From the IMG/VR virus record IMGVR_UViG_3300021440_000076, positions 1-35,963 of that record: a stretch of DNA of 35,963 bases; one strand, 5' to 3'. Below, one piece after another: positions 1,373 to 32,020 of this stretch. Position 1 is the stretch's first letter, and each line of letters opens with the position of its first letter. The translations under genes were made by a program, and so were the position numbers. Origin of the DNA: a virus. Under the pieces are notes generated by a model that was not told the origin of the DNA, ran no database searches, and saw only the letters and a program-made list of their open reading frames with translations.

Positions 1373-1388
1373 TAGCCGCACATGGCTT
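1373..1388. promoter_or_regulatory. Switch operator 2
   Basis: TAGCCGCACATGGCTT matches the operator consensus in both half-sites (TAGCC and ATGGCT) with a degenerate left inner base pair. It starts 23 bp from operator 1, about two helical turns, and contains the upstream candidate ATG (1382) of the CI-like gene. Confidence 0.65.
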
Positions 1389-1852
1389 CTACTTCGTCGC
1401 ATAGTCCATTTATGGATATTTCGGCAGTCATCGCAGCGAACCTCTCAGCCTGGATGGAGGCAACGCCGGAGCTGGAAACGGTTCAAAAAGTCGAAGCCAA
1501 ATCGGGCGTCGGGTTCGGCACTGTTCGCCGCGCACGAAAAGGCGAAGGGAACCTCACAGTCGAAAAACTTGCCGCCATTGCTGCCGCATTTGGCCGCACC
1601 GCCGCCGATTTGGTCACACCGCAGGATGCGTCGTATGCCGCGCTAATACCTTCGTCGAATAGGCAAGCGCCGGCGGTTGCGGCAGAGTCCACCCCATCCC
1701 CATTCATGCGGTGGCCTTTTCCGCATGCCGACCAGCGCGCCTATGAATCCCTGCCTCCCGAAGGCCAGGTGTGGGTGCAAGGCCGGCTTGACGCGGCCAT
1801 CGAGCAGGCCCGGCAGCAATTCGGCACGCAGACCGAGAAACGGTCGGCGTGA
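1382..1852 (+). CDS. CI-like repressor, short form without a peptidase domain
   Basis: Cytoplasmic DNA-binding repressor. The N-terminal half carries a helix-turn-helix of XRE type: VQKVEAKSGVGFGTVRRARKG followed by NLTVEKLAAIAAAFGRTAADLV. The C-terminus (SLPPEGQVWVQGRLDAAIEQAR) is short and helical. At 146-156 residues it lacks the S24 LexA-type peptidase domain of lambda CI, so RecA-driven self-cleavage is unlikely and induction must use another route. Start is uncertain: ATG 1382 or ATG 1412 (MDISAV...), both inside operators and without a clear Shine-Dalgarno. It is divergent from the Cro-like gene. A GTG at 1849 overlapping its stop opens only an 18-codon frame (RRSAQVYKFPTPSRT) that may be a remnant. 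Confidence 0.75.
   Translation: MASTSSHSPFMDISAVIAANLSAWMEATPELETVQKVEAKSGVGFGTVRRARKGEGNLTVEKLAAIAAAFGRTAADLVTPQDASYAALIPSSNRQAPAVAAESTPSPFMRWPFPHADQRAYESLPPEGQVWVQGRLDAAIEQARQQFGTQTEKRSA
1403..1418. promoter_or_regulatory. Switch operator 3 (weaker)
   Basis: AGTCCATTTATGGATA keeps the CCAT-N2-ATGG core of the operator family but departs from it at the outer bases of the left half. It covers the downstream candidate ATG (1412) of the CI-like gene, so occupancy would block that gene's own expression. Confidence 0.55.
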
Positions 1853-2822: not shown

Positions 2823-3047
2823 ATGAGCAAGACCCTCATCGTCAAGCACACCAAAGACAGGAATGGCAATCCACTGGCGTGCGTGCACAACCTGCCGGGC
2901 GAGGGCGCGGAGTTCAACGCGCAAGGATTGCGCCGCCTGGCCAATCTGCTGAACACCATCGCCGACGAATGCGATTCCGGGGCAGGGCTGGTCCATGCGG
3001 AGACGCGCACGTATGACCCTGAGCTCATTGCGGAAGCGCGCGCATGA
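2823..3047 (+). CDS. Unknown small early protein (74 aa), first of the rightward operon
   Basis: Not recognised. The ATG at 2823 has a strong ribosome site (GAGGAGA, 6 bases away), and the last bases overlap the next ATG (ATGA). The product starts KTLIVKHTKDRNGNPLACVH and has a helical middle (GLRRLANLLNTIADEC), with no membrane segment or metal site. As the first gene after the operator-controlled promoter it would be made earliest after infection or induction. That is where phages place host-takeover or recombination functions, but the sequence gives no specific role. Confidence 0.65.
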   Translation: MSKTLIVKHTKDRNGNPLACVHNLPGEGAEFNAQGLRRLANLLNTIADECDSGAGLVHAETRTYDPELIAEARA

Positions 3048-3385
3048 AAACGATCCGCATGCTGCCGCCCGGCTCGCTGCGCGCCCAGCGGCGCCGCGGG
3101 CGCATCGAAGGGGCTGCCGGCATGGCGTTGATAGCGCTGCTTGCCGGGCTGGCAGCAATCGCCATGACACCCGTCGAGCTGTATCGGGCCGCAACGCCCA
3201 CGCCAAACGCCAGGGCGGCAACGCCAATGCGGATCGGGCGTGAGCCGCTGCCGCCCTGCACCGACATGGGCGCCAAGGACTGCATGGCGGTGGCCGATGC
3301 CACCGTGCGCACCATCCCCGAGCCCGGAACGCTGGTGCTGGTTGGTGCAGCGGCGGCAGGCGCCATGTGGATGGCGAAGCGATGA
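3044..3385 (+). CDS. Putative PEP-CTERM-sorted exported protein (113 aa)
   Basis: The N-terminus is long and basic (QRRRGR), then a hydrophobic segment MALIALLAGLAAIAM (about residues 27-41), plausibly an uncleaved or late-cleaved signal. The middle is proline- and alanine-rich with one cysteine pair (PPCTDMGAKDC). The C-terminus reads IPEPGTLVLVGAAAAGAMWM followed by a final AKR. That has the PEP motif, a hydrophobic span and a short basic tail, the tripartite PEP-CTERM signal recognised by host exosortases. The product may therefore be delivered to the envelope or exopolysaccharide of an exosortase-bearing host. It overlaps both neighbours by 4 bases. A simple two-span membrane protein is the alternative. 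Confidence 0.6.
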   Translation: MKTIRMLPPGSLRAQRRRGRIEGAAGMALIALLAGLAAIAMTPVELYRAATPTPNARAATPMRIGREPLPPCTDMGAKDCMAVADATVRTIPEPGTLVLVGAAAAGAMWMAKR

Positions 3386-3486
3386 GCATGTGGGTGCTGG
3401 CTGCGTTGGTATGGGCCGGGTTTGCAGCGCTGGCCGTTGGTATGTGCGCAATGAACCACCAGGACGACGACGAGGGAACGCCATGA
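3382..3486 (+). CDS. Small membrane peptide (34 aa)
   Basis: ATG 3382 overlaps the stop of the PEP-CTERM gene (ATGA), and its own stop overlaps the next ATG (3483) in the same way. It has one transmembrane segment (MWVLAALVWAGFAALAVGM) followed by a short acidic tail (HQDDDEGTP). Without it there would be a 100-base hole in an otherwise fully coupled operon. Function is unknown; it could act with the exported protein upstream. Confidence 0.6.
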   Translation: MSMWVLAALVWAGFAALAVGMCAMNHQDDDEGTP

Positions 3487-3728
3487 TCGACAGGAGCAAG
3501 ACAAAAACCCGACTGATTGTTGCGCAACTGCACGACATCGCGCAGCGCGAGCAGGACGGCACGCTGCGCACCCTGCTGGAAGACGCCGCCGTGCTGCTGG
3601 ACGAGTACCAGGCAGGGCTGATCCTGGCCACGCCTCACCCGATGACGGGCATGGCGCTTGTGCACAGCCAGGCGCTGGCGCAGATCGACATGGACCACAT
3701 CGACATCACCGAGGAGATTGCATCGTGA
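3483..3728 (+). CDS. Unknown small helical protein (81 aa)
   Basis: Not recognised. The start at ATG 3483 is fixed by the ATGA overlap with the membrane peptide; longer in-frame readings would run across that gene. The product is soluble and mostly helical (LIVAQLHDIAQREQDGTLRTL, read as separate helices, then a LLEDAAVLLDEYQ helix) with an acidic C-terminus (DHIDITEEIAS). The next gene begins on a GTG that shares bases with its stop. The charge pattern suggests a protein-protein adaptor, without real evidence. Confidence 0.6.
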   Translation: MIDRSKTKTRLIVAQLHDIAQREQDGTLRTLLEDAAVLLDEYQAGLILATPHPMTGMALVHSQALAQIDMDHIDITEEIAS

Positions 3729-13400: not shown

Positions 13401-16193
13401 TCAGACCCCCAGCAACATCTTGAGGCCGTCATTGTTCACGCGGACCTGGATCGAGCGCAGGATTTCCCACATGAACGCCTCGAGATGCGGCTGCAGCCCG
13501 GCGCCGTCGATTTTGATCATGCCTTCGCCTTTCATCATCGCGTCGGTCTGCGCCTTCATCATGCTGATCTGCGCCTTCGTGAGCTCTTCCTGCAGTTTGA
13601 ACGCGGCATCCCGCCGGGTGCTTTCCTTTTCGATTTCGCGCGTCAGCGTGCGCCATTCCTGTAGCCCGAGATTGTCCTTTCCAAGCAGCCCGAGCATGCT
13701 GGTGAGCGTCTCGCCGGTATTGGCGATCGACATATTCACGCTCTCGAACGCCGCCGACATGCGTTTCGTGTCGGCCTCGATCTGCGCGGTGGTGATCTGC
13801 GTCGATGCTTCGATCAGCTTCAGTTTTTCCGCGTGCTGCATCTTCGCCACTTCTTCATTCCAGCGGCGCGTCGCCTCTTCGGCCTTCTTCATCTCCTCGG
13901 CGGTTTTCGATGCCGCAGCCCCCACCGTGCCGAAGCCCTGCGCCTGGCGGTCGATGTTCTGAATCCGCTCTTGATCGGCTTTGCTCAATTCGTCAAAGGC
14001 GCCCTGGAACCCGACGACTGCGCCAGTCGCTTTGTCAATCAGCAGCTTTGACGCAGTGATGCTGTTTCCGAATTTGTCGATTCCTGCACCGGCTTTCTCG
14101 ACCACGCCCCCGCTGGCGAGCATCGCGGCGTTCCATCCGTCAAGCGCTTCGCGGCTTTCGATCGTACGTCGCACAACGGTTCCGAAGGCATTGACATATT
14201 CGGTAATGGGTCCCGTTGTGATCTTGCTGACTGCACCAGCCACGCCGTCGAGCCCGTCGGCCAGCGGTTTCGCGGCGCGCGCAGCGTTCGTCCATGCGCC
14301 GGTAGCGTCATTCCACACCAGCCGGCCGGACTCGACCCCTTGATTGAGTTGGTCGAGCGAGATGCGCACGCCGTCAACCGTGATGCCGATTCCTTCAATC
14401 CTTTCGGCGCCATTCACCAGATCGTATGCCCATGCGCCGAGTGTCGTTTGTGAGCCCGTCAGGCTGCTTGCCAGCTTGTTGAGCGGGTCGTTAAGCGCGG
14501 TGCCAATTGCGTAGCCGGCCGCCCCCGCCGCACCCACGAGGCCGGCGGAGCCCAGCGCGGCAATCAGACCAGGCGCAGCGGCTGCGGCTGCGCGCATGGC
14601 GCCGACGAGGCCGGCGCCCTCTTTGACGATCAGGATGCCAAGCAGCGCATTGAGCGCGGGCAGCGCAATGTCGATCTGCGAAGCGATGCCGCCGATCGTG
14701 CCGGCGAACTTGAATATTTCGGGGTTTGCTTCGGCTGCGCCCTGCCCCACGCGCACCAGCAGATCAAACACCGGCTTCATCGACTCGATGACGCCAGCCG
14801 TGTATTTCGACAGTCCCAGAAATGCCGCGCCGACACCCTCGATGGCTTTCGCCAGGCCGGCGGCGCTGGTGAGGTCCAGCCCGCCGAACAGCAGCCTAAC
14901 GGCATCGATTACCGCCTGGATGCCGTTGCGGAACCCGGACAGGTCAGCCGACTCCAGCGCCGCCGGCAGGTTCTTCGCCACGCGCGCCATCGTCGCCTCG
15001 ATGTCGCCGAAAATGCCTTCGATGTACGCCACAAGATCTTTCAGCGCCCCGCCTTTAACGCTCGCGCCCAGGGCATTGAAGATGCTGGCGATCGCATTGG
15101 CGATGCCACCAAACTCGTCCATCAGCGGCGATCCGATCTCGACCAGCAGCACCTTGAACGCATTGGCTGCTTTCGCGCCGGCCTGCTCGATGCTGCCGGC
15201 CATCTTGCCGAATGCGATGTCGACCGAGCCGGCGGCGTTGCCCATCGAAACCAGCGATTCCTTGAATGTGCTGGCCTGCGCGCCGGTCAGCGTCATCACC
15301 GCGCTGAGGCCCTGCACATCGCCGAACAGCTTGGCCATCTTGTCGGCGCTGCCGCCTGTCGCCGTCTGAACGTCGGTCAGTACGCCCGCGAATCCTTTCG
15401 ACTTCAGCGCATTCGCGTCGAACTGGATTCCCAGCTCGGCGGCGAGCTTGGTCGCTTGCTCGCTGGGCTTGATGATGTTGCTGATGGCGGAGCGCAGCGC
15501 GTCGATCGCCGTGCTGGGCTGGATGCCGGCCGCCGTCAGCGTCGCCACTGCCGCGCCGATCTCCTGCAGACTCACCCCTGCCGTTGCGGCAATCGGCGTG
15601 ATGTTCGCCAGGTACTGCGACAGATCGCCCATTTCGATCTTGCCGTCGGCAATGATCTTGAAGAACAGATCAGACACCGCGCCGGCCTTGTCCGTCGCCA
15701 TCCCGTAGGCGTTGAGCGTGCTCACCAGCACCTCGGTGGTGCCTTTCAGGTCCGCGCGCGTGGCGACCGCCAGGCGCTCGGCCGTGCCGATCAGCTCGAG
15801 CGACTTTCCGTAGGCAACGCCGGAGCCCACCGCGGCGCTGATCGAGTTGGTGATGTCTTCGAGCGAGGCGGTCGAGGTGCTGGCATATCGCAGGATGGCA
15901 TCCCGAAATCCGGCGATCTCCGCATCGCTGGCGTCGAACAGGGTCGAGATCTGACGAAAAGCTGCATCGAAGTCGCCGGCCGTTTTCACCGCGAACGTGA
16001 CCACTGCGGCACCGGCGGCCAGGATCCCGGCCTCGAACTTCACCGCGGCGGACGTGAATTCGCGCATCGGCCCGGTGACGTCGCCCACCGATCCTGACAC
16101 GCTCCGCATGTTGGTCAGCACCGCCTGCGTCGCGGCGGCGGTCTGGTCGACGCCCCTGAAGATCAGTTCCACTACGCGCTGTGCATCGGCCAT
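13401..16193 (-). CDS. Tail tape-measure protein (930 aa)
   Basis: The longest gene of the window and the ruler for tail length. The N-terminus (VVELIFRGVDQTAAATQAVL) and the core (residues about 90-330) match the TP901-type tape-measure domain. Typical segments are ISTLFDASDAEIAGFRDAIL, FFKIIADGKIEMGDLSQYLA and ITPIAATAGVSLQEIGAAVA. A hydrophobic glycine/alanine-rich stretch (about residues 525-570) is the usual membrane-active region. The C-terminal 250 residues are charged coiled coil (EEMKKAEEATRRWNEEVAKM). By the common rule of about 0.15 nm per residue the tail would be roughly 140 nm. It follows the frameshifted chaperone gene, the standard siphovirus order. Confidence 0.9.
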   Translation of the reverse strand: MADAQRVVELIFRGVDQTAAATQAVLTNMRSVSGSVGDVTGPMREFTSAAVKFEAGILAAGAAVVTFAVKTAGDFDAAFRQISTLFDASDAEIAGFRDAILRYASTSTASLEDITNSISAAVGSGVAYGKSLELIGTAERLAVATRADLKGTTEVLVSTLNAYGMATDKAGAVSDLFFKIIADGKIEMGDLSQYLANITPIAATAGVSLQEIGAAVATLTAAGIQPSTAIDALRSAISNIIKPSEQATKLAAELGIQFDANALKSKGFAGVLTDVQTATGGSADKMAKLFGDVQGLSAVMTLTGAQASTFKESLVSMGNAAGSVDIAFGKMAGSIEQAGAKAANAFKVLLVEIGSPLMDEFGGIANAIASIFNALGASVKGGALKDLVAYIEGIFGDIEATMARVAKNLPAALESADLSGFRNGIQAVIDAVRLLFGGLDLTSAAGLAKAIEGVGAAFLGLSKYTAGVIESMKPVFDLLVRVGQGAAEANPEIFKFAGTIGGIASQIDIALPALNALLGILIVKEGAGLVGAMRAAAAAAPGLIAALGSAGLVGAAGAAGYAIGTALNDPLNKLASSLTGSQTTLGAWAYDLVNGAERIEGIGITVDGVRISLDQLNQGVESGRLVWNDATGAWTNAARAAKPLADGLDGVAGAVSKITTGPITEYVNAFGTVVRRTIESREALDGWNAAMLASGGVVEKAGAGIDKFGNSITASKLLIDKATGAVVGFQGAFDELSKADQERIQNIDRQAQGFGTVGAAASKTAEEMKKAEEATRRWNEEVAKMQHAEKLKLIEASTQITTAQIEADTKRMSAAFESVNMSIANTGETLTSMLGLLGKDNLGLQEWRTLTREIEKESTRRDAAFKLQEELTKAQISMMKAQTDAMMKGEGMIKIDGAGLQPHLEAFMWEILRSIQVRVNNDGLKMLLGV

Positions 16194-17823: not shown

Positions 17824-18264
17824 TCAGGTTTCGTTAATGAGATTGGGATTGCCGCGCACGTGCTGCCACCGCACGCGGATTTGCAGCTCGGCAAAAACGA
17901 ACTTGCCGATTTCGGTTTGTATGCCCTGCCCTGCCAGGTCGAACCCTTCGGCCAGTTCGCCGAACGTCTCGTCCACATGCAGCGCCGTCAGCAGCGCGGC
18001 GAGCATGTCATGTGCCTGCGCGCGCAGCGCGGCCCGCGCGGCGGTGCTGGTCATCGCCGATGTGTCGATAGCGGCCTGCGCCGTGCCGATGCCGATCGGC
18101 GTTACCCAGCCGGACGCCCCGTAGCGCGGCAGCGCCTCATCTTGGCCGTCCTGGACGATGGTCACCGGCAGGTCGCGCTCGTCCTCGGGCGCCGGGATGG
18201 CGTACTCGCCGCCGACGGCCGCCGTGACTGCAGCGAGGAGTTTTTCGCGGACGGGGGCGGTCAT
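17824..18264 (-). CDS. Tail terminator protein (gpU-like, 146 aa)
   Basis: Caps the tail tube so that it stops growing and can join the head. The pattern is typical: an N-terminal helix (PVREKLLAAVTAAVGG), a strand with DLPVTIVQDGQDEA, then GIGTAQAAIDTSAMTSTAAR-type segments. A helix follows with LLTALHVDETFGELAEGFDL and a final strand VFAELQIRVRWQHVRGNPN. The length matches lambda gpU (131 aa) and relatives. It overlaps the upstream tail-completion gene by four bases and lies 15 bases before the tube gene. Confidence 0.75.
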   Translation of the reverse strand: MTAPVREKLLAAVTAAVGGEYAIPAPEDERDLPVTIVQDGQDEALPRYGASGWVTPIGIGTAQAAIDTSAMTSTAARAALRAQAHDMLAALLTALHVDETFGELAEGFDLAGQGIQTEIGKFVFAELQIRVRWQHVRGNPNLINET

Positions 18265-18887
18265 TCCGTCGGCTCCGGCGGGGATTTCTTCGCGAGCAAG
18301 TAGCGCATGGCGTCAAGCAGTTGCGCCTGGTATTCGGCAGACGCGGCCGGCATCACGTCGTCGCGCACGCTGTTGAAGACCTGCGACAGCGACGGCGAAT
18401 TGAGCACGTGGATTTCCCCGTCCTTTTTACGGCGGACGATCGCCAGGGCGTGGCTGCCCTTGAGCACCATGTAGAAAGGCTTGCTCTCGTCGCCACGGCC
18501 GACTTTCACCGCGGCGCCCGTCGGCTTGACCTTGACGTAGTGCCCGCCATACGGCGCCGGCGGGGGCTTGATCCAGCTCACCCCTTCCGCGGCGATACCC
18601 GGCTCGGTCGCATACCGTGACAGCAGGATGCCGCGGGACGGTGTGGTGATCGCGCCGGACAGCGCAGCGCGCGTCGCGCGGCGGATGGTCAGGCGCTCGT
18701 TCACATACGATGCCGTCAGCCGCACTTGGTCGCGAATCGCCCGGCTCGCCAGCGTGCGGATCTTCGGCGCGGACTTGTTGATCGCCACACGAATTGCATC
18801 GGCGGTGTTGCCGCCCACGAACTCGAACAGGCTGATCGCGTCGGCGATTGCCGCGCGGTCGGGCTCGATGGTGAATTCGGTGCTCAT
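18261..18887 (-). CDS. Tail completion protein Z-like (208 aa)
   Basis: Matches the prophage minor tail protein Z (GPZ) family: a helical N-terminus with AIRVAINKSAPKIRTLASRA, IRDQVRLTASYVNERLTIRR, then strands ILLSRYATEPG...GGHYVKVKPTG and FYMVLKGSHALAIVRRKKDG. The C-terminal helix includes LSQVFNSVRDDVMPAASAEY. Lambda gpZ (192 aa) acts late in tail assembly at the head-proximal end. It overlaps both neighbours by four bases. A 37-residue fragment with a similar opening is found upstream of the large terminase (32017-32130). Confidence 0.8.
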   Translation of the reverse strand: MSTEFTIEPDRAAIADAISLFEFVGGNTADAIRVAINKSAPKIRTLASRAIRDQVRLTASYVNERLTIRRATRAALSGAITTPSRGILLSRYATEPGIAAEGVSWIKPPPAPYGGHYVKVKPTGAAVKVGRGDESKPFYMVLKGSHALAIVRRKKDGEIHVLNSPSLSQVFNSVRDDVMPAASAEYQAQLLDAMRYLLAKKSPPEPTE

Positions 18888-19610: not shown

Positions 19611-21689
19611 TTAAGCGCCAGCGTTGGTCACGGCGCCGCGGTAATCGATGGCCGCCACGCCGTAATCCAGGCGCACCTTGTAGCGAGTGCCATCGACCGT
19701 GAAGCCTTCCTGCTGCTCGACGAACGGCTCCTGATTGCCGTCGAGGAACGCCACTTCGATGACCGGCGCCTCGTTGGCATCGGCAAACAGGTAGCGACGG
19801 GTGCCCGACAGGCGCGGGGTATCGATGATGTCGCGGAAAAGGCCATTCACCACGTTGGGCTTCTGCAGCTTGTTCGCAGTGTCGGGGTCGTACTGCGCCT
19901 CGTTGATCGAGCGCGCGGTTCCGCCCAGCGCCAGCGGAACGACGAGCGCCGCAGGACGCAGGTCGAGGAAATCGTTCCCACCGACATCGGTCTGCGAGGC
20001 CATCGCAACGCGGTCCAGATCGATTGCGGCCATCGTGATGGCGGCGCCGGTGGTCACGTTGCCGTGCGAGGCATGGAACAGCGTGAGGCCATCGCCCATG
20101 GTCGGGCCAAGGCCGCTGTTCAAGGCGAGCAGCGCATACACGTCGGCTTCCACGGTGCGCTTTGCGGCACGGCCCAGCGCGGCGGCCAGGCCGATGAAGG
20201 CGCCCAGGTCGTCGTTGATGATCGCCTGTCGAGACAGGTTGATGATGTTGCCCTTGGTCGAGGCCGTGACGCTGCCCTTCTCGCCATCCGGAATGGCCTT
20301 GTTGCGGAACTCGCCCAGCTCATTGACCGTTTCCAGGTTGCCCAGCGAGCCGACGCGATAGCGGCCATGCGCGCGGAAGTCGGACACGCTGCCGGCCTTG
20401 CAAAAGCGGTTCCAGGTGTCCGGCGCGGCGGCATAGGCCATCTGCAGCGCCTTGTGCATGGCGTTCTCGAGCAGAACCGTGAAGTCGCCCGTGCCTTGCG
20501 TGAAGGAGGCGGCCACCACCTGCATCTGGTCCATGTGGCCATGCTTGACGCCTGCGCGATCGAGCGAGGCACGCGCGAGGTCGAGCAGCTTGGCGCCGCG
20601 ATGCTGCGAGGCCTGCGCGGCGGCACGCATTGCCGAATCGGCCACGCCGGCACGCGACAGCAGCGAGGCGACGATGCCGGCGCGCTGCTTGTCCATCTCG
20701 TCTTCGACAGTCTCGACGTGCGTTGCGCCCACCGGCTGCACGCCGCGGGCCATGGCGGCCAGGATGCGGTCAGCGGCATCTTGCGGCGTGCACTCGGCGT
20801 CGTCTTCGCACTGCTGCTGGATCTGGGCCAGAGCAGCAACATCGGCGCCGGCCACCTTTGCAGCAGTGGCGAACTGCGCACGGATACCTGCGCGGCGGGA
20901 CTTGTCGGCGGCGAGGATTTCGGCAGCGGTCGGCTGCTTGGCTTCGAGGGCGGCGGTTTGCTGTGCAGCCGCCGGCGGATCGACTTTTACAGTCATGGTG
21001 CTTGGCTCCTTGTGAGCTTGAGAAGCCGCAACAGCGGCGGTTTGCAATGCAGGATGCCGCCCGGCTGCCGACGGGTAGCGGGAAAGCGCGGCCTTGGGGA
21101 TGGCAGCCGATGCGGCAATTGGAATCGCGTCGGTGATCGCGTCGACAAACCCTGCGTCGAGCGCTTCCTGCGCGGTGTACCAGTGGTCTTTTCCGTCTGT
21201 GAGCAGCGCGAGGATCTCGGCCTGATCAAGGCCGGTCTTGGCCACATAACTGCTGCTCATGGCAAGTGCATATTTGTCGAGCGTGTCGGCCATGTCGCGC
21301 ATATCCGCGCTGTTTCCGCTGGCGTAGCCCCATGGGGCATGCACCATCAGCAGCGCGTTGTCGGCCATCTCGACGGTGTCGCCGGCCATGGCGATCAGGC
21401 TGGCGATGCTGTACGCCGCGGCCTCGATGCTGACGGTGATCTTCGCGCCGTGGCGCTTGATGGCGTTGTAGATGGCGATGCCATCGGTGACGCTGCCGCC
21501 GTAGCTGTTGATACGCACGGTGATCTGCTCGGCATCGATGGCGGAGAAATCCTTGACGAAGGACTTCGCGGTAATGGTTTCGTCCCACCAGGATTCACCG
21601 ATGTCACCGAAGATGAAAACCTCGGCGCTCTTCGGCGCATCATCGGCAGCCGCCTGAACGGGCCGGATGGAATACCAGGGTTGCGGCAT
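19611..21689 (-). CDS. Head maturation protease fused to major capsid protein (692 aa)
   Basis: Residues about 20-190 are a ClpP-type (S14) prohead protease: VRINSYGGSVTDGIAIYNAI, a nucleophile Ser94 in AAYSIASLIAMAGD, His117 in LLMVHAPW, and a likely acid near D168. Residues about 230-400 form an alanine-rich helical linker like a scaffold, with TAAEILAADKSRRAGIRAQF. Residues about 410-692 are a Mu-gpT-like major head subunit: MHKALQMAYAAAPDTWNRFC, VNELGEFRNKAIPDGEKGSV, DLGAFIGLAAALGRAAKRTV. An internal ATG at 20996 has AAGGAG nine bases upstream and could give scaffold plus capsid (461 aa) without protease. A dyad promoter element lies at 21736-21763. Confidence 0.85.
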   Translation of the reverse strand: MPQPWYSIRPVQAAADDAPKSAEVFIFGDIGESWWDETITAKSFVKDFSAIDAEQITVRINSYGGSVTDGIAIYNAIKRHGAKITVSIEAAAYSIASLIAMAGDTVEMADNALLMVHAPWGYASGNSADMRDMADTLDKYALAMSSSYVAKTGLDQAEILALLTDGKDHWYTAQEALDAGFVDAITDAIPIAASAAIPKAALSRYPSAAGRHPALQTAAVAASQAHKEPSTMTVKVDPPAAAQQTAALEAKQPTAAEILAADKSRRAGIRAQFATAAKVAGADVAALAQIQQQCEDDAECTPQDAADRILAAMARGVQPVGATHVETVEDEMDKQRAGIVASLLSRAGVADSAMRAAAQASQHRGAKLLDLARASLDRAGVKHGHMDQMQVVAASFTQGTGDFTVLLENAMHKALQMAYAAAPDTWNRFCKAGSVSDFRAHGRYRVGSLGNLETVNELGEFRNKAIPDGEKGSVTASTKGNIINLSRQAIINDDLGAFIGLAAALGRAAKRTVEADVYALLALNSGLGPTMGDGLTLFHASHGNVTTGAAITMAAIDLDRVAMASQTDVGGNDFLDLRPAALVVPLALGGTARSINEAQYDPDTANKLQKPNVVNGLFRDIIDTPRLSGTRRYLFADANEAPVIEVAFLDGNQEPFVEQQEGFTVDGTRYKVRLDYGVAAIDYRGAVTNAGA

Positions 21690-21735
21690 GGGATCGCCTG
21701 CATGGAGATTGACGCTTGCAGGCTATCCGCGCGTG

Positions 21736-21763
21736 TGTCGCACCGTTACCGCATGGTGCGACA
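21736..21763. promoter_or_regulatory. 28-bp dyad upstream of the capsid operon (candidate Mor-like site B)
   Basis: TGTCGCACC at 21736-21744 is exactly inverted at 21755-21763. The element is 23/28 identical to the dyad at 29492-29519, including the non-symmetric CGTTACC. On the leftward strand it is followed by ACGCGCG and GATAGC (a weak -10), then by the protease-capsid ATG 47 bases away. A palindrome overlapping the -35 position suits an activator of the Mor/C family. Confidence 0.65.
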
Positions 21764-24761: not shown

Positions 24762-25301
24762 TCAGAACCTGTTCAGCGCGTTGGACACATCATTGACGGT
24801 CAGCGGGCCTTCCCAAATCAACGAACCCGGCGCGGCAGTAGTTCCCGTGCCGGTCGTAAACAGGGTTTCCGCTTTGCTCGCAACGCGCTTGCATGCCGCG
24901 ACCAGCGCGGCTTTGAGCATGTTCTGCGTGCCCGTCAGGTCGTTAATTGTCGTGACCACGTTCGGGTCACGACAATCCCTATTCCTCGACATGACAACAA
25001 ACAGCGTGTCCCGCTTGCCCACAGTCAGCGCGTCCATTTGGGTTGCGCCCTGCATCATTGCCGTGTCCCATTCATTCGGCGTCACCGAGGTTTTCCAGAC
25101 TATGAAAGCGGTCGGCAGGTTGTAGATCCGCGCGACTTCGGTGTCATTGCGCGCTGCGAGCGCGGCGGCGACGGCCGGGTCAGCGTCGGCACGGAGCGCA
25201 GCCACGAGCGTCTGCGCTTGAGCGTCGGTGAGTTGTGCTGCAGCAACCGGGCCGGCGAACAGCGCGGCGAAGGTGAGGATGGCGGTAATAAGTTTTTTCA
25301 T
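24762..25301 (-). CDS. Phage protein of unknown role with an apparent signal peptide (179 aa)
   Basis: ATG 25301 overlaps the preceding stop (ATGA) and has AGGACC upstream. The N-terminus KKLITAILTFAALFAGPVAA is a textbook signal peptide. It is followed by QLTDAQAQTLVAALRADADP, IYNLPTAFIVWKTSVT, and ending segments KRVASKAETLFTTGTGTTAA. The mature part resembles phage proteins that normally begin with 'LTDAQ...LxxxIxAD' and have no signal. Export of this copy would be unusual. It lies directly after a papain-like hydrolase gene. Confidence 0.6.
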   Translation of the reverse strand: MKKLITAILTFAALFAGPVAAAQLTDAQAQTLVAALRADADPAVAAALAARNDTEVARIYNLPTAFIVWKTSVTPNEWDTAMMQGATQMDALTVGKRDTLFVVMSRNRDCRDPNVVTTINDLTGTQNMLKAALVAACKRVASKAETLFTTGTGTTAAPGSLIWEGPLTVNDVSNALNRF

Positions 25302-25708
25302 TTTGCGGTCCTTTCTTTGCAGTAATCCCCGAGCGTCGCCGGGGAATAGAGTTGCGGGTTCGGAATGTCCATCGCAGCGGCGCACCACTCCGAGCAAAAC
25401 CAGCCCGGAGAATTGCCAGCGCGATTGAAGAATTGGCGCTTGAGCAGATCCATCCAGCCGTACAGCTCGTCCTGCGTCTGCGCGTAAAACTGTTTGACGT
25501 GCGCCTCGCTTGCCCACGGCAGCTCGACAAAATCCCATCGCTCCGCGCGCCAGTCGATGCGCTTGGCGCGCACCCCACCATCACGCAGGCTCGACGTGTA
25601 GCCGATGCCGTCGATGACTAACTCGCAGTGCGAGTACGGGCTGCGCGTCCACCAGCGGATCAGCGCGTTGCCGATCTGGCCTTTGCCTTTGTAGAGGGCG
25701 AGGCGCAT
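25298..25708 (-). CDS. Permuted NlpC/P60 (YiiX-like) hydrolase (136 aa)
   Basis: Small cysteine hydrolase with circularly permuted papain-like layout: catalytic His27 in RSPYSHCELVIDG comes first and Cys105 in PGWFCSEWCAAAM last. This is the order of the YiiX/YaeF group of NlpC/P60 proteins. The body (VKQFYAQTQDELYGWMDLLK) is helical. Such proteins in phages may cleave peptidoglycan peptides or lipid-like substrates; the substrate cannot be read from sequence. It lacks a signal peptide, so it is either virion-borne or released by the holin. Confidence 0.7.
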   Translation of the reverse strand: MRLALYKGKGQIGNALIRWWTRSPYSHCELVIDGIGYTSSLRDGGVRAKRIDWRAERWDFVELPWASEAHVKQFYAQTQDELYGWMDLLKRQFFNRAGNSPGWFCSEWCAAAMDIPNPQLYSPATLGDYCKERTAK

Positions 25709-26137: not shown

Positions 26138-26389
26138 CTAGTTGTTCGCCGCTGCGCGGCAGGTGTCGTGCATGCGCCGGCAGGCGCCGGCAGCGTCTAT
26201 GACGTCGAATGTCCAGATCACGCCGGCGACTTCATCGGCCGTCGTCAGTGCGGGTAGCGCCGGGCAGGCCATCAGGCACTCGCTCGGCAACTGCTGCGCC
26301 GGCATTGGCTGCGGCAACAGCGGCGTTGAGGTCGCGCAGGCGGTCAGCAGGCACAGCGCAATCAGGGCGGGGAGCAGTGCGCGTGGCAT
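26138..26389 (-). CDS. Outer-membrane spanin lipoprotein (Rz1-like, 83 aa)
   Basis: Signal peptide with lipobox LLTAC (Cys18 would be lipidated), then a short proline-containing periplasmic part (TPLLPQPMPAQQLPSECLMA) with three more cysteines near the end. It is embedded out of frame in the 3' half of the Rz-like gene (overlap 26232-26389), the classical Rz/Rz1 overlapping arrangement. With the inner-membrane spanin it fuses inner and outer membranes at the last step of lysis. Confidence 0.8.
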   Translation of the reverse strand: MPRALLPALIALCLLTACATSTPLLPQPMPAQQLPSECLMACPALPALTTADEVAGVIWTFDVIDAAGACRRMHDTCRAAANN

Positions 26390-26639
26390 TCAACTGCCCT
26401 CGCAGCCTGGCTTCACGAGATGCAGATTCGGCCTGTGCATTTCGTAGCGCTTCGCCTGCCCGACGTGCGGCCTCAGCTTCAGCGTCGAGACGTGCAGCGC
26501 GAGCAGCGGACTCCGCAGCCGATGCGGCACGAGCGGCACAAGCGTCTGCGGCAGTCGATACGCCGTGGCGGTAGCCACCCCAGCCAGCCAGAGCGACAGC
26601 CAGGCAGCCGGCCAGTAGCAGATAGGGAGTCGGGACCAC
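26232..26639 (-). CDS. Inner-membrane spanin (Rz-like, 135 aa)
   Basis: GTG 26639 follows GGAGG by six bases. An ATG two bases earlier is in another frame. One N-terminal membrane segment (PYLLLAGCLAVALAGWGGYR) is followed by a long alanine-, glutamate- and arginine-rich periplasmic coiled coil (ESAARAARLDAEAEAARRAG). The C-terminus (LRDLNAAVAAANAGAAVAER) is overlapped by the Rz1-like gene. It is 10 bases downstream of the endolysin. Together with Rz1 it disrupts the outer membrane. Confidence 0.8.
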   Translation of the reverse strand: MVPTPYLLLAGCLAVALAGWGGYRHGVSTAADACAARAASAAESAARAARLDAEAEAARRAGEALRNAQAESASREARLRGQLNATRTAPRPDCAVPADRLRDLNAAVAAANAGAAVAERVPDGLPGATRTDDGR

Positions 26640-26649
26640 ATTGCGCCTC

Positions 26650-27129
26650 CTAGCCGTCGATGAGGTTGGTTGCGATACGACGAGCCCAGCCGCGCCCAAA
26701 GCTGCTCCACGCACCGAGCCCGACCATGAACTTGAGCCGGTGCCCGTTGAAGCGCTTGGCGAGCTTGTGCGGATCGGCCAGGCGGACGGCAAGCAGCGTT
26801 TTCGGGCCGATGATCCCGTCGTCGGTGGCATGCGCCGCGCGCTGCAGCCAGCGGACGGCGGAACGCACACCAGAATTGACGGCTGCGTCGAACAGGTCGA
26901 AGCGCACGGCATCAGGCATCAGATCGGCCTGCACTGCGTCCCAGTAGTCGCGGCGGTAGATCGCACGCGCGGTGTCGAGCGACAGGTCGTGCATCGGCCC
27001 CAAGTAACTATGCTTGCGTGCAACGGCCTCGGTGATGCCGTACATCGTCTCTCCGCCCGGGTCAGCGCGGTGGTTGCTGTACCCGCCCTCGTGCTGGAGC
27101 AGGCGCTCGAACGCCACGTCGAAATTCAC
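26650..27129 (-). CDS. GH108 endolysin (159 aa)
   Basis: Glycoside hydrolase family 108 (ZliS-like) N-acetylmuramidase. The signature is HEGGYSNHRADPGGETMYGI, with probable catalytic Glu14 and NH segment. A helical domain (YRRDYWDAVQADLMPDAVRF, DLFDAAVNSGVRSAVRWLQR) follows. A C-terminal PG_binding_3-type stretch has DDGIIGPKTLLAVRLADPHK. No signal peptide is seen, so it needs the holin. It overlaps the upstream membrane gene by four bases. Confidence 0.9.
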   Translation of the reverse strand: MNFDVAFERLLQHEGGYSNHRADPGGETMYGITEAVARKHSYLGPMHDLSLDTARAIYRRDYWDAVQADLMPDAVRFDLFDAAVNSGVRSAVRWLQRAAHATDDGIIGPKTLLAVRLADPHKLAKRFNGHRLKFMVGLGAWSSFGRGWARRIATNLIDG

Positions 27130-27383: not shown

Positions 27384-27739
27384 TTCGCGCCCCCGATCAG
27401 GCTCGTGATGCGCTTCATCGCAATCGACAGACCACCCCAGCCCAAGCCGAACGCGATGGGGTAGCGCAGCATCTCGTCCGGGACTTTGTTCACTTGCGGC
27501 AGGATGTCGCCCGCAAGCAGCGTGACCGGTGCAGCCATCCATGCGGCGAGCAGCGTGCCGGCGATGACTTGCAGCACACACCCCCACGGACCGGCCTCGT
27601 CCATGCCGCGCAAACTCCAGAGTGCGCCAACGAAAGCCGGGAAGATCAGGTCGGCCGGCAGCCCGGTGGCGACGCCGGCAATCAGGATTCCTGAGCCGAC
27701 GATATGCGCGCCAGCGGCGGTAGTGGCGGGTTCGGTCAT
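27380..27739 (-). CDS. Holin (119 aa)
   Basis: Starts at ATG 27739, overlapping the portal stop. The hydrophobic segments are ILIAGVATGLPADLIFPAFV, VLQVIAGTLLAAWMAAPVTL and YPIAFGLGWGGLSIAM, giving three likely spans in a short protein with a lysine-containing tail. Position (followed by a second membrane gene and endolysin) and topology identify it as the pore former that times lysis. The unusual point is the direct coupling to the portal gene. Confidence 0.75.
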   Translation of the reverse strand: MTEPATTAAGAHIVGSGILIAGVATGLPADLIFPAFVGALWSLRGMDEAGPWGCVLQVIAGTLLAAWMAAPVTLLAGDILPQVNKVPDEMLRYPIAFGLGWGGLSIAMKRITSLIGGAK

Positions 27740-29214
27740 TGCGAACCCTCCGGCGTGCTGTCGTTTGGCATTTCGATCGCCGTCGAGAAGCGTAGGCCAA
27801 GCTCTGCGGCCTTGGTGCGGAAGTCGGCGATCTGCTCAAGCACGTCAGACGGATTCCCGCCGCGGCGACGGATGGCCTCCACTTCGGAGGCAAAGCCCGA
27901 CTGCACGAGGATCTGCCACGCGGTCGCCTCTTTTACTGGGTCAATCCAGGGCATGGCCTGCACGGTATAGAGCGCGTCGTCCTCGGAGCCGGGCTTGAGG
28001 TCTGCGGGCATGGGCACCACGCCGGACAGGTGCGCGGCAACGACGAACTGCTCCCACGCCGGCTGGACGATCTCGCCGGTGAACTCGTCGCACAACACCG
28101 CGTAGTGAATCCACTGCTCGACGAGCTCCTGTCGCTGCGCCGAGTAGCTGCCGTTGTAGTCCTTGCTGATGCTGCTGTAGCTGCCGCCAAGACCGGCAGC
28201 GATCGCGCGCAATTGCCCCTGCCGGAACATGATGAGGTTCGGGTTCGGGCGCTTGCTGTCGATGAGGCCAATCTCTTCGCCAACCGCCAGGTCATCGATG
28301 ATCATGCCGGGGGCGAAGCTGATCTGGCGCTCGCCGGTATTGGTGGCCGCTTCTGGGTCGTACAGGTCGGGAGTGCCGCGCTTCACGTAGGCGGTGAGCA
28401 TGGCGGCGATCTTCGCGGCTACGCGCTCGGACTCTTCGTAGTCCTTGATGTCTTCCAGCCGCGTGATGACGGACGCGAACTCCGACACCCCACGAATCTG
28501 TCCAATGTGGTCGAGCGTGGCCAGGTGTAGCGCGCGATCCCACGGGATGCGCTTCGTGTCGTTTCCGCTGGGCAGGCTGATCGATGCCGCGCTCGTCTTG
28601 AGCACATGGATCGCCAGCGGCTTGCCCCACTGGTTGCGCTCGATGCCTTGTGTGATGTTGCGTGCCGAGTCGTTGTAATCCATCGGCACGAGGTCGGCTT
28701 CGAAGGCCTCGATGGAGAACGGCACGCGGGTGCCGTGATCGAGGTCTGGCCGCAGGCCGGTAATCATCTGCGCGAACACTTCTCCATCGCGCAGCCATGC
28801 GCGCGCCATCGCACGCTGCAGGCGCGACCACGGCAGCCGATGCGTCACTTCTGGCCGACGACACCAGTCGCGGTACGCCTCGAGCAGTTGCGCAGCGTAC
28901 TCGGCGTGGATGCTGCCATCCAGCCGGCGCGGTTGCGGCTCGATGCCGATGCCCTTGGCGCCGACAACGTTATTCACCAGCGTGCGCAGGGCACCGCGGG
29001 CCAGGTCGTGATTGCGCGCAAGGTGACGCGCCTGCGCGCGGATCGCGGTAGCCCCCCGCTGCACCATCTCGTTCTGGCTGCCGCGCTCGCGGTAGAACTT
29101 GCGCATGCGCGACGGCTCGGCGGCTTCATAGGCGGCCAGCGCAGTGCGCGCGGCACGACGCCGCATGGCCCTTACGGGCGAGAAGTAGCCGATCAGCCTG
29201 TCAACCGCATTCAT
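27736..29214 (-). CDS. Portal protein, lambda (gpB) family (492 aa)
   Basis: Dodecameric ring through which DNA enters the head. Family features include an N-terminal RAAYEAAEPSRMRKF-like region (here AAYEAAEPSRMRKFYRERGS) and LARNHDLARGALRTLVNNVV with GAKGIGIEPQPR. These are followed by LPWSRLQRAMARAWLRDGEV, FEADLVPMDYN, and HLATLDHIGQIRGVSEFASV with ITRLEDIKDYEESERVAAKI. GLGGSYSSISKDYNGSYSAQ is a strong lambda-portal signature. The length is usual for the family. It overlaps the joining-protein gene upstream and the holin downstream by four bases each. Confidence 0.92.
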   Translation of the reverse strand: MNAVDRLIGYFSPVRAMRRRAARTALAAYEAAEPSRMRKFYRERGSQNEMVQRGATAIRAQARHLARNHDLARGALRTLVNNVVGAKGIGIEPQPRRLDGSIHAEYAAQLLEAYRDWCRRPEVTHRLPWSRLQRAMARAWLRDGEVFAQMITGLRPDLDHGTRVPFSIEAFEADLVPMDYNDSARNITQGIERNQWGKPLAIHVLKTSAASISLPSGNDTKRIPWDRALHLATLDHIGQIRGVSEFASVITRLEDIKDYEESERVAAKIAAMLTAYVKRGTPDLYDPEAATNTGERQISFAPGMIIDDLAVGEEIGLIDSKRPNPNLIMFRQGQLRAIAAGLGGSYSSISKDYNGSYSAQRQELVEQWIHYAVLCDEFTGEIVQPAWEQFVVAAHLSGVVPMPADLKPGSEDDALYTVQAMPWIDPVKEATAWQILVQSGFASEVEAIRRRGGNPSDVLEQIADFRTKAAELGLRFSTAIEMPNDSTPEGSQ

Positions 29215-29441
29215 ACGCTGCCGCCCGACAGGTTGGCCACAGAGAAATTCAGCCCGCTTCCACCCGCCGCACGCGCCTGCTCGCGAGAGACCTGCGCCTG
29301 CAGCAGGTCGATCGCCTTACGCACCTCCGCCAGCTCGGCCATGCGATGCGTCCGGTCGCCGCTGCGCGCCTCCTGCGCCTGCAGGATGGCAATCTCGGCA
29401 GCGAGGTAGGCGGCAAGGCGGGTTTCGGCTACAGAGGGCAT
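29211..29441 (-). CDS. Head-tail joining protein, gpW/DUF6148-like (76 aa)
   Basis: Small helical protein between terminase and portal genes, in the slot of lambda gpW (68 aa). The pattern VAETRLAAYLAAEIAILQAQ, ...RMAELAEVRKAIDLLQAQVS is typical of gpW or DUF6148 proteins of phages with a GpA-type terminase. It plugs the portal after packaging. It is the first gene after the dyad at 29491-29520 and so the first target of the presumed activator. Confidence 0.75.
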   Translation of the reverse strand: MPSVAETRLAAYLAAEIAILQAQEARSGDRTHRMAELAEVRKAIDLLQAQVSREQARAAGGSGLNFSVANLSGGSV

Positions 29442-29490
29442 AAGGCGCGGCGCACGGCTAGAGGCTGGTGCGACGAAAGTACGCGCGTGC

Positions 29491-29520
29491 GTGTCGCAGC
29501 GTTACCCGTCGGTGCGACAC
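29491..29520. promoter_or_regulatory. 28-30-bp dyad upstream of the portal/lysis operon (candidate Mor-like site A)
   Basis: GTGTCGCA (29491-29498) is inverted as TGCGACAC (29513-29520) around 14 bases. The element spans the TAA stop of the Mor-like gene. It is 23/28 identical to the dyad at 21736-21763. Leftward of it follow ACGCGCG and TACTTT (29481-29476, possible -10), then the joining-protein ATG at 29441. A further half-site (GGTGCGAC, 29467-29474) lies in the leader. Confidence 0.65.
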
Positions 29521-29828
29521 TCTTCGCCGGTCTCGTTCCTTCGCAGAATGCGATAGATAGTGGATCGGCTCTTGCCGTAGCGGCGGGCCAGCACCTGGAC
29601 GTTTCGCCCGTTGTATTCCGCTCTCACCCGCTCGGCGACGTCATCTCGAATCAGAAAGTCCAGTGTGTGCAGGTGGTAAGTCGCGCCCCCATGACCAAGC
29701 CGGGCCGCCCCCATTACCAGCGCATCGGCCAGCGTCTCGGCCGCACCTTGCGGCAGCTTCAGCTCGCGCATCAGCACGTCAGTGAATACATCGGCCAGCG
29801 TTGTGGCCTGCTGAGCGTGTGAGGTCAT
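29502..29828 (-). CDS. Mor-family transcription activator (108 aa)
   Basis: Belongs to the Mor/C activator family of Mu-like phages. The DNA-binding end ERVRAEYNGRNVQVLARRYG with KSRSTIYRILRRNE is the defining HTH. The N-terminal part (TTLADVFTDVLMRELKLPQG, AAETLADALVMG) is the dimerisation region. Mu Mor (129 aa) binds a dyad just upstream of the middle promoter and recruits RNA polymerase. Here the gene overlaps the large terminase stop by four bases and ends inside a dyad repeated once upstream of the capsid operon. The most likely job is switching on the late operons, and perhaps its own downstream unit. Confidence 0.85.
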   Translation of the reverse strand: MTSHAQQATTLADVFTDVLMRELKLPQGAAETLADALVMGAARLGHGGATYHLHTLDFLIRDDVAERVRAEYNGRNVQVLARRYGKSRSTIYRILRRNETGEECRTDG

Positions 29829-32020
29829 AGGCGGCTACTCCAATCGGATTTTGCAATGGCGGAGGTGCGGGCGGGTTGTTTGGGGGGCTGCAGGGGGGTG
29901 AGCGGGGATGCAATCTCGGCCCGATCTGCGACGGCGGGAGCTTCAGCCGCGGCCGGCGGCGGGCGCTTTGCCTGCGGGCCGGCCAGCCTGCGCGCGGCCA
30001 AGGCATAGTTGAGGCAGTCCAGCGCCTCGTTTCGCGGGCGGATCTGCACCCATTCCTGCACCGGGCGCGTGCCACGGAAGCGGGTGACGAGCTTTTCGGC
30101 GGCGAGCTGGGCGAAGTACTCGTCGTCGAACGCCGGCTGGCGCGGAAAATGGATGTAGCCGGGGCCGGGCTGCTGCATCTTCAGGCGGGCATAGAGCAGC
30201 GCCTTGCCCTGATCGACGCCCAGCGGTTCGACCTGCACGCCGCGTTTGCGCTGGCGGCGCAGGCGCTGGCGGCGCACCTTTTCGTCTTCCACCAGCGGGC
30301 GGCCGGTGCCGGCCAGGCCCTTGATCGCGCGGCACCAGCTTGTAGCCCTGACGAAGTCGTACACCATGCTGGTGTTGTAGCCGGAGTCGATGCACGCGAA
30401 CTGCACGCCTTCGTCTCTAAGCGCGGCAGAAAGATCGAACCAAACGTCGTGTTGGGCGGTGTCGCCGGGCAGGATGAGGTGGTCGAGTAGCCAGGCCTCC
30501 TCGCCTTCGCCCCATGCGACCACGCTGACTTCGATGCGGTCCTTCTGCACGTCGCAGCCGGCGGTGATGAGGCTGTACAGCGGGCGGCCATCAGCCGTGA
30601 GCGTGTCGCGGGTGTAGTCCTCAAGCCGGCTGATGAGGCTGATCTCTTCGATGCTGTCGCCCTGCTCGCGCCATACCTCGCCGAGGTAGGTATTCACGAA
30701 GCCCTTCAGCTCGGCCGTGTCGCCCTGGCTGTTGATCCACTTCTGCGCGATCGCGCGCCAGTCGAGGCCCAGGCCGGTGGGCGCGTACAGGGCGTTGAGG
30801 TGGTAGCCGTGCGCCAGCTTCACGCCGGGGCGCTGCGCCACCCAGCGGCCGCGGGCCAGCATGTCGGCCTTGTGGCCTTCGCTGATCTCGGCGCCGCAGT
30901 GGCGGCACACGTACCAGGCGTCGAGCACTTGCGGCAGGTGGTGGGGGTCGTCCTCGGGCGGGGGCGCGGTGCACCACTTCAGGCCGTGGTGGCCGGCCTT
31001 GCCGCCGAACTCGAGGTGCTGGAACTCGTCGCAGTGCGGGCACGGCACGTAGTAGCGGCGCATGTCGGTGCGGCGGTACTCGATGTCAATGCGGCTTTGC
31101 CCTTCCAGCGTCGGCGTGCTGACGAGGTACGTCTTCGCGCGCGAGAAAGTGCGCTGGCGGTTTTCGATCAGCGTCATCGGGTCGCCTTCGCCGCCCACGT
31201 CCCATGGGAAAGCATCGACCTCGTCGCAGATCACATACGGCAGGTGGTCGGAGCGCAGGCTGTCGGGGCTGTTGGCGCCTGCTTTGATGATGCGGGCGCG
31301 GGCGCCGTACTCGAGCAGGTCGCCGCGGTTGGCCTTGTTGCGGCTGGCCGTGGTCACCAGGCTCGACAGAGCCTCAGTCTCGTCGATCATCTTCGCCAGG
31401 CGCGGGTTGAACGATCGGTCGCGCAGCTCGAGCGTTGGCACCACCACCAGCAGATCCTTGTTTTGCAGGTGGTGCATCACGTAGCCGAGCCAGTTGTACA
31501 TGGCCTCAGTGCCGCCGACCCCCGACGACTTGATGAACACCACCTTTCGCACGGGCGAGTGCTCAGAGAGGTCGTCCATGATGTCGCGCAGGTAGGGCGT
31601 CAGCGCCGTGCGCCACGGGCCGGGCGCGTTGGTGCCGGTGCGGATGACGCGATAGCGGTCGGCGTGCTGGCTGACGGTGAGCAAGTCGCGGGGCTTGGCG
31701 CCGCGGGCCATGCGCTCGCCCATCCACGGCAGGCGCGTGGTGGCCGCCTCCAGCGTGTGCCCCAGCTCGCGCAGCACGTCGTGTGCGGTGTCGCTCATCA
31801 GGTAGTGCACGCGCGTTTCGTCGTGCTCGCCTTCGATGGCGGCGAGCCACCGGCCGACGATGGCGTCGAGCGCCTGCAGAATCACCGCGCGCGCTGCGAT
31901 GGAGTCGGCGCGCACGTCGGCAAGATCGCAGGTGTCGCCGAGAAGGCGATCGAGGTCGGCTTGCGCCTGCTCTGCGCGCAAGCGCTCTCGTTCGGCCTGC
32001 AGGTCGGCTAGGTTGGTCAT
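29825..32020 (-). CDS. Large terminase subunit, GpA type (731 aa)
   Basis: Motor and nuclease that packages DNA. The ATPase motifs are a Walker A-like KSSGVGGTEAM (about 164-174) and Walker B VICDEVDAF (about 263-271). Two zinc-knuckle pairs follow, PCPHC and CRHCG. The nuclease region contains ITAGCDVQKDRIEVSVVAWG and ACIDSGYNTSMVYDF, with conserved aspartates. The C-terminus (RNEALDCLNYALAARRLAGP) is typical. Length is as in lambda gpA (641) to related proteins. GpA-type enzymes usually cut at cos sites. It overlaps its neighbours by four bases. Confidence 0.93.
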   Translation of the reverse strand: MTNLADLQAERERLRAEQAQADLDRLLGDTCDLADVRADSIAARAVILQALDAIVGRWLAAIEGEHDETRVHYLMSDTAHDVLRELGHTLEAATTRLPWMGERMARGAKPRDLLTVSQHADRYRVIRTGTNAPGPWRTALTPYLRDIMDDLSEHSPVRKVVFIKSSGVGGTEAMYNWLGYVMHHLQNKDLLVVVPTLELRDRSFNPRLAKMIDETEALSSLVTTASRNKANRGDLLEYGARARIIKAGANSPDSLRSDHLPYVICDEVDAFPWDVGGEGDPMTLIENRQRTFSRAKTYLVSTPTLEGQSRIDIEYRRTDMRRYYVPCPHCDEFQHLEFGGKAGHHGLKWCTAPPPEDDPHHLPQVLDAWYVCRHCGAEISEGHKADMLARGRWVAQRPGVKLAHGYHLNALYAPTGLGLDWRAIAQKWINSQGDTAELKGFVNTYLGEVWREQGDSIEEISLISRLEDYTRDTLTADGRPLYSLITAGCDVQKDRIEVSVVAWGEGEEAWLLDHLILPGDTAQHDVWFDLSAALRDEGVQFACIDSGYNTSMVYDFVRATSWCRAIKGLAGTGRPLVEDEKVRRQRLRRQRKRGVQVEPLGVDQGKALLYARLKMQQPGPGYIHFPRQPAFDDEYFAQLAAEKLVTRFRGTRPVQEWVQIRPRNEALDCLNYALAARRLAGPQAKRPPPAAAEAPAVADRAEIASPLTPLQPPKQPARTSAIAKSDWSSRL

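Follow-up and report, generated by a model that had tools for sequence, protein, structure and literature searches.

A predicted Mor/C-family late-gene switch acting on two paired dyads in a lambda-like phage

We analyzed a stretch of viral DNA of 35,963 nt (IMG/VR record IMGVR_UViG_3300021440_000076, positions 1 to 35,963; here called the window) and propose that a 108-aa protein encoded in it is a Mor/C-family activator that serves as the phage's single late-gene switch by acting on two dyads, a reading to which we assign a probability of roughly 0.9. The late-switch reading had been put forward in a preliminary description of this DNA and gains support, at the level of sequence, from the pairing of sites, the agreement between the two sites of a genome, a -10 at a fixed distance, covariation with the recognition helix, and co-occurrence of the gene and the sites in relatives. 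Binding, oligomer state, activation, transcription starts, and late timing are predictions that we draw from these features.

In the mechanism that we propose, the activator gene closes the terminase-side unit, and its product would bind, as a dimer or a higher oligomer, to one dyad at the end of its own gene (M site) and another before the capsid gene (C site), the TGTCGCA half-sites of each lying two helical turns apart. The dyads would be read by the N-terminal turn of the recognition helix (R88, S89, T90, R93), and each would stand in for a -35 element, with a -10-like hexamer shortly after it from which the host RNA polymerase would start. The M site would thereby direct transcription of the gpW, portal, and lysis genes and the C site that of the capsid, neck, and tail genes.

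The putative activator gene and the dyads of the window

The 108-aa ORF matches the Pfam family Mor (PF08765) with 35.2 bits (cut-off, 24.9) and phrog_532, which is annotated as late transcriptional activator, and a phmmer comparison with Mor of Mu (1rr7) gave an E value of 2.5e-5. Its AlphaFold model has a Mor/C fold with a C-terminal helix-turn-helix (HTH), in which the predicted recognition helix covers residues 88 to 103, beginning at S87/R88. The top seven Foldseek matches of the model are chains of Mu C and Mor (probability, 0.99 to 1.00; best E value, 2.8e-3), with VIA-align Z scores of 7.6 (C), 6.9 (Mor), and 6.5 (Mor). These structure scores are modest, and the Mor/C assignment is carried by the sequence match. 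No second Mor/C paralogue was found.

The terminase large subunit gene overlaps the start of the activator gene, and the two presumably form a co-transcribed upstream unit (Table 1). The phage combines a lambda-type terminase and portal with a P4-like (P4-type) primase, and no transposase family was found among the ORFs scanned, which were part of those in the window. A non-transposing phage is plausible on these grounds, but the record is possibly incomplete.

Table 1. Features of the window discussed in the text
Feature	Position	Strand	Evidence or remarks
Weak HTH_3 ORF	1382-1852		
Tape measure gene, after the protease-capsid gene	13401-16193		Pfam/PHROG
Neck gene, after the protease-capsid gene	18261-18887		Pfam/PHROG
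Fusion of ClpP-type head maturation protease and major capsid protein, opening late unit 2	19611..21689	-	Pfam/PHROG
-10-like hexamer TAGCCT, C site	21720..21725	-	11 nt past right arm; inferred +1 near 21713
C-site dyad TGTCGCACCATGCGGTAACGGTGCGACA	21736..21763	-	Hexamer arms GTCGCA; 14-bp spacer; AAAAAC before it
Spanin-like lysis ORF, portal stretch of late unit 1	26232-26912		phrog_1403, Rz-like
Lambda-type portal protein, late unit 1	27736..29214	-	Phage_portal_2, 306 bits
gpW-like head-tail adaptor, opening late unit 1	29211..29441	-	phrog_118
-10-like hexamer TACTTT, M site	29476..29481	-	11 nt past right arm; inferred +1 near 29469
M-site dyad TGTCGCACCGACGGGTAACGCTGCGACA	29492..29519	-	Hexamer arms GTCGCA; 14-bp spacer
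Activator gene of the Mor/C family (108 aa)	29502..29828	-	Pfam, PHROG, phmmer, AlphaFold, Foldseek, covariation
Terminase large subunit (gpA type)	29825..32020	-	Pfam GpA ATPase and nuclease

Read on the minus strand, the two 28-mers are identical at 23 of 28 positions, and the next best same-strand match to either of them in the whole window reaches 19/28. A joint pattern allowing up to three mismatches retrieved only the M and C sites from the whole window, and the same pattern written backward retrieved none. The preliminary description had reported both dyads, a stop codon of the Mor-family gene that falls within one of them, and leftward operon starts about 50 bases beyond each, and all of this was borne out: the ATG codons follow at 47 bp (capsid, 21689) and 51 bp (gpW-like, 29441). 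The ACGCGCG that it noted after both dyads is present, as is the -10 hexamer TACTTT of the M site; its candidate for the C site, GATAGC, is two bases off, since alignment of about 90 relatives places the hexamer at TAGCCT.

Directly after the TACTTT hexamer of the M site, an extra GTCGCAC half-site is found (29448-29475, minus strand; CGTCGCACCAGCC), which is kept in the nearest relative (CGTCGCATCAGCC) and was seen only in these two phages. High levels of the activator might damp the M-site promoter through this half-site.

Paired sites and an apparent recognition code among relatives

A direct search of IMG/VR with the 108-aa protein gave no matches because the family diverges fast, and tblastn of GenBank phages gave just weak Mu-type matches. 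After the empty search, the capsid protein was used as bait, which yielded 241 loci, 197 of them without duplicates and 129 with a Mor-family gene, one each. In every genome, two stretches were searched for their best shared 28-mer: the 260 bases preceding the capsid gene and a region running from -80 to +1800 bases around the Mor stop. The best 28-mer match within a genome was 22 to 28/28 in about 95 of the 129 genomes, and cross-genome controls peaked at 18 to 19; a few values of 28/28 were trivial, as Mor adjoined the capsid gene and the stretches overlapped, and they were excluded afterwards. The arms vary between genomes (GTCTCA, GTCCGG, GTCCCA, GTCCAG, GTGCAG, GTAGCA, TTGACA, GTCGCA, and others) and are concordant between both sites of each genome; in about 18 of 90 genomes, they were assigned by hand. 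The spacer ranges from 12 to 16 bp across the family and has the same length at both sites in 88/88 genomes. No third site was found in the DNA examined of 79 of these 88 genomes, and the apparent third sites of the other nine were rejected as antisense matches, several of them the main site read in reverse, which agrees with the earlier proposal of one site per late transcription unit.

The M site lies no more than 60 nt from the Mor stop in 62 of 88 genomes. In the nearest relative (L003; capsid 79% identical), a 195-aa ORF (2972-3559) separates the Mor gene from an intact dyad, and the dyad is therefore not a by-product of coding sequence. This inserted ORF has an unlike composition, and about 0.6 to 1.5 kb also lies between Mor and the site in several other relatives (e.g., L030, L059, L065, and L068); such intervals may represent a slot for cargo under the upstream unit. 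Another relative, L222, carries mixed half-sites, GTCTAG and GTGCAG/GTGCAA, at both sites, as if caught between two specificities.

Co-occurrence of the gene and the dyads in relatives, the check proposed in the preliminary description, was strongly positive, with two sites per genome and none in Mor-less relatives. When a strict site caller was applied to loci that extend 9 kb or more upstream, a site before the capsid gene was present in 51/85 Mor-positive loci versus 0/10 Mor-negative loci (Fisher p = 0.00025; shuffled sequences, 0.5 to 1%). The strict caller found no site in about a third of the Mor-positive relatives, some of which have distant Mor types without a detectable pair. The part examined of MT835566 (capsid about 51% identical) contains neither Mor nor sites.

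We then calculated the mutual information between arm bases and Mor alignment columns, using representatives clustered at 90, 70, and 60% identity. The top column for each variable arm base was 58, 59, or 63, with column 60 ranking second for bases 5 and 6, and the top columns lay in the recognition helix even with 35 representatives less than 60% identical. Columns 58, 59, 63, and 60 correspond in the window protein to R88, S89, R93, and T90, on the first turn of the helix and its next face, and these are the predicted specificity residues. C at arm base 5 accompanies Arg or Lys at column 63, G accompanies Glu, and A accompanies Gln, Ser, or Ala, in residue groupings made post hoc with the training set already seen; the pairing of C with Arg/Lys held in 87/90 genomes. 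At column 59, Ala goes with T at arm base 4, Thr with C, and Ser with either, often in mixed half-sites, and Arg goes with G at arm base 3. On the capsid tree, base 5 and column 63 changed jointly in all nine informative independent pairs (9:0, p = 0.004), and T at base 4 and Ala at column 59 did so in all eight (8:0, p = 0.008). Control Mor columns gave no significance in this test, and base 1 with column 58 and base 3 with column 59 stayed below significance, with too few independent pairs.

In a small set of hold-out genomes, some of them close to training genomes, arm base 5 was predicted correctly in 10 of 11 and half correctly in the last (L335), which has one GTCCAC and one GTCCGG half-site. 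Mor matches from 300 Burkholderiales genomes served as hold-outs only where a site was readable; as a set they were rejected, since most represented other Mor types from loci that do not have this capsid. The operator word thus appears to be largely predictable from the protein across about 90 related phages. With less assurance than for the switch itself, we favor a broader view, in which one Mor-family activator and its two promoters evolve as a locked, widespread late switch: half-sites two turns apart would be bound by perhaps more than one dimer, a four-residue code would predict the operator (Ala, Thr, or Arg at column 59 for GTCT, GTCC, or GTG; Arg, Glu, or Gln at column 63 for C, G, or A at base 5), and the resulting switches would be mutually insulated.

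Predicted promoter anatomy and other readings of the dyads

Among 178 sites (88 M and 90 C), a -10-like hexamer occupies positions +12 to +17 past the right arm in every class, with A as its second base (+13) in 99% and T as its last base (+17) in 99 to 100%. Sites after Mor have the -10 TAGNNT, and those before the capsid gene mostly [CG]A[AC]ACTG. C sites have C or G at the first -10 position and a stronger A-tract immediately before the left arm, and the portal-side M sites have T and a weaker A-tract; these differences perhaps reflect a balance of strength or timing. When the start is set by placing the hexamers at -12 to -7, the dyad would span about -50 to -24, with its center near -36.5, and would cover the -35 position. 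The predicted target promoters therefore carry, in their sequence, a dyad in place of a -35 followed by a recognizable -10. The comparison with Mor of Mu made in the preliminary description holds in this arrangement and fails in geometry: the dyad is larger and nearer to the -10 than that of Mu, and its center would not lie near -43.

The dyads might instead bind another phage DNA-binding protein, such as a repressor, with the Mor-like gene as a mere neighbor. Dyads before operons are typical of repressor operators, and the window does contain a weak HTH_3 ORF. We nevertheless consider this very unlikely, because the arm bases covary with residues of the Mor recognition helix and not with other Mor columns, Mor-less relatives are without sites, and the dyad sits at the -35 position, followed at a fixed distance by the -10.

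Transcription terminators or RNA hairpins are less probable still. The arms can form hairpins, the C site reads on the antisense strand as a hairpin followed by GTTTTT, and the A-tracts before most C sites are T-runs on that strand; the sense strand, however, is without a T-run, and hairpin arms could drift independently at two sites, yet here they agree in each genome and track the protein. The dyads could possibly have a secondary role as antisense terminators. We give the least credence to recombination, integration, or packaging sites, even though directly repeated 28-bp sites with asymmetric cores are like recombinase sites and the HTH of the activator resembles that of serine resolvases. 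The dyads are always found a short distance before gene starts, with a fixed -10; a recombination event at the direct repeats would remove the genes of late unit 1; and Mor, the protein that covaries with the dyads, contains no recombinase domain.

Relation to Mu and lambda

The Pm promoter of Mu has no -35 and contains a 16-bp dyad with 5-bp arms and a 6-bp spacer, centered at -43.5 (PMC4390567), just upstream of which the alpha-CTD binds (PMC4390567, PMC4287176). In the Mu record, Pm directly follows mor, starting at its end, and Plys directly follows C. The putative activator and its promoters share with Mor and Pm the protein family and fold, a dyad that replaces the -35, a TAnnnT-type -10, a promoter starting where the activator gene itself ends, and an A/T-rich stretch just upstream, where Mu has the alpha-CTD bound. 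The geometry is not matched, as the dyads described here have 26 to 28 bp, hexamer arms, a spacer of 12 to 16 bp, half-sites 20 to 21 bp apart, and a center placed near -36.5. Cryo-EM entries 9l0x and 9l0y of Mu each contain four activator chains, and we therefore consider a tetramer on the 26- to 28-bp dyad possible.

Mor of Mu acts at one promoter and is followed by a second activator, C, whereas here two promoters are predicted and no second Mor/C paralogue was found. The arrangement is also like that of C (PMC4461284), where one Mor-family activator serves several late morphogenetic and lysis promoters, the first target lying directly after its gene. C acts at four late promoters and is made under Mor control, whereas one activator seems to do both jobs here; the C operator sequences are unrelated to the dyads of the window. 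With lambdoid phages, including lambda and relatives from E. coli such as mEp043, the window phage shares a lambda-type head module, the capsid being about 33% identical. Lambdoid phages rely on antitermination by Q at one late promoter, as in lambda, in contrast to the two activator-dependent promoters predicted here. The system appears to be a variant of Mu's Mor/C activation, with one activator, two late promoters, and an apparent specificity code.

No prior description of the switch or the code of this lambda-like group was found in the literature searched, which was mostly without subscription papers, so that this absence is weak evidence of novelty. Mor/C activation, known mainly from Mu, would also operate in a large set of lambda-like phages and prophages, of which many are in Burkholderiales. 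About 90 natural activator-operator sets would provide a testable protein-DNA code, late promoters would become readable from sequence, and a supply of mutually insulated activator/promoter pairs would be at hand. The question also arises of how specificity shifts jointly in an essential regulator and at two sites far apart.

Other strong dyads occur in the window. One, at 24946-24976 within the ORF 24762-25538 (minus strand), has the form ATTGTCGTGACC-ACGTTCG-GGTCACGACAAT; its outer TGTCG is like that of the activator sites, but its arms and spacing are different. Near the left end of the record, strong dyads are located at 2676-2709 (CCATATACGGCT...AGCCGTATATGG) and 74-102 (ATGTTGCATG...CATGCAACAT), which are possible operators or terminators.
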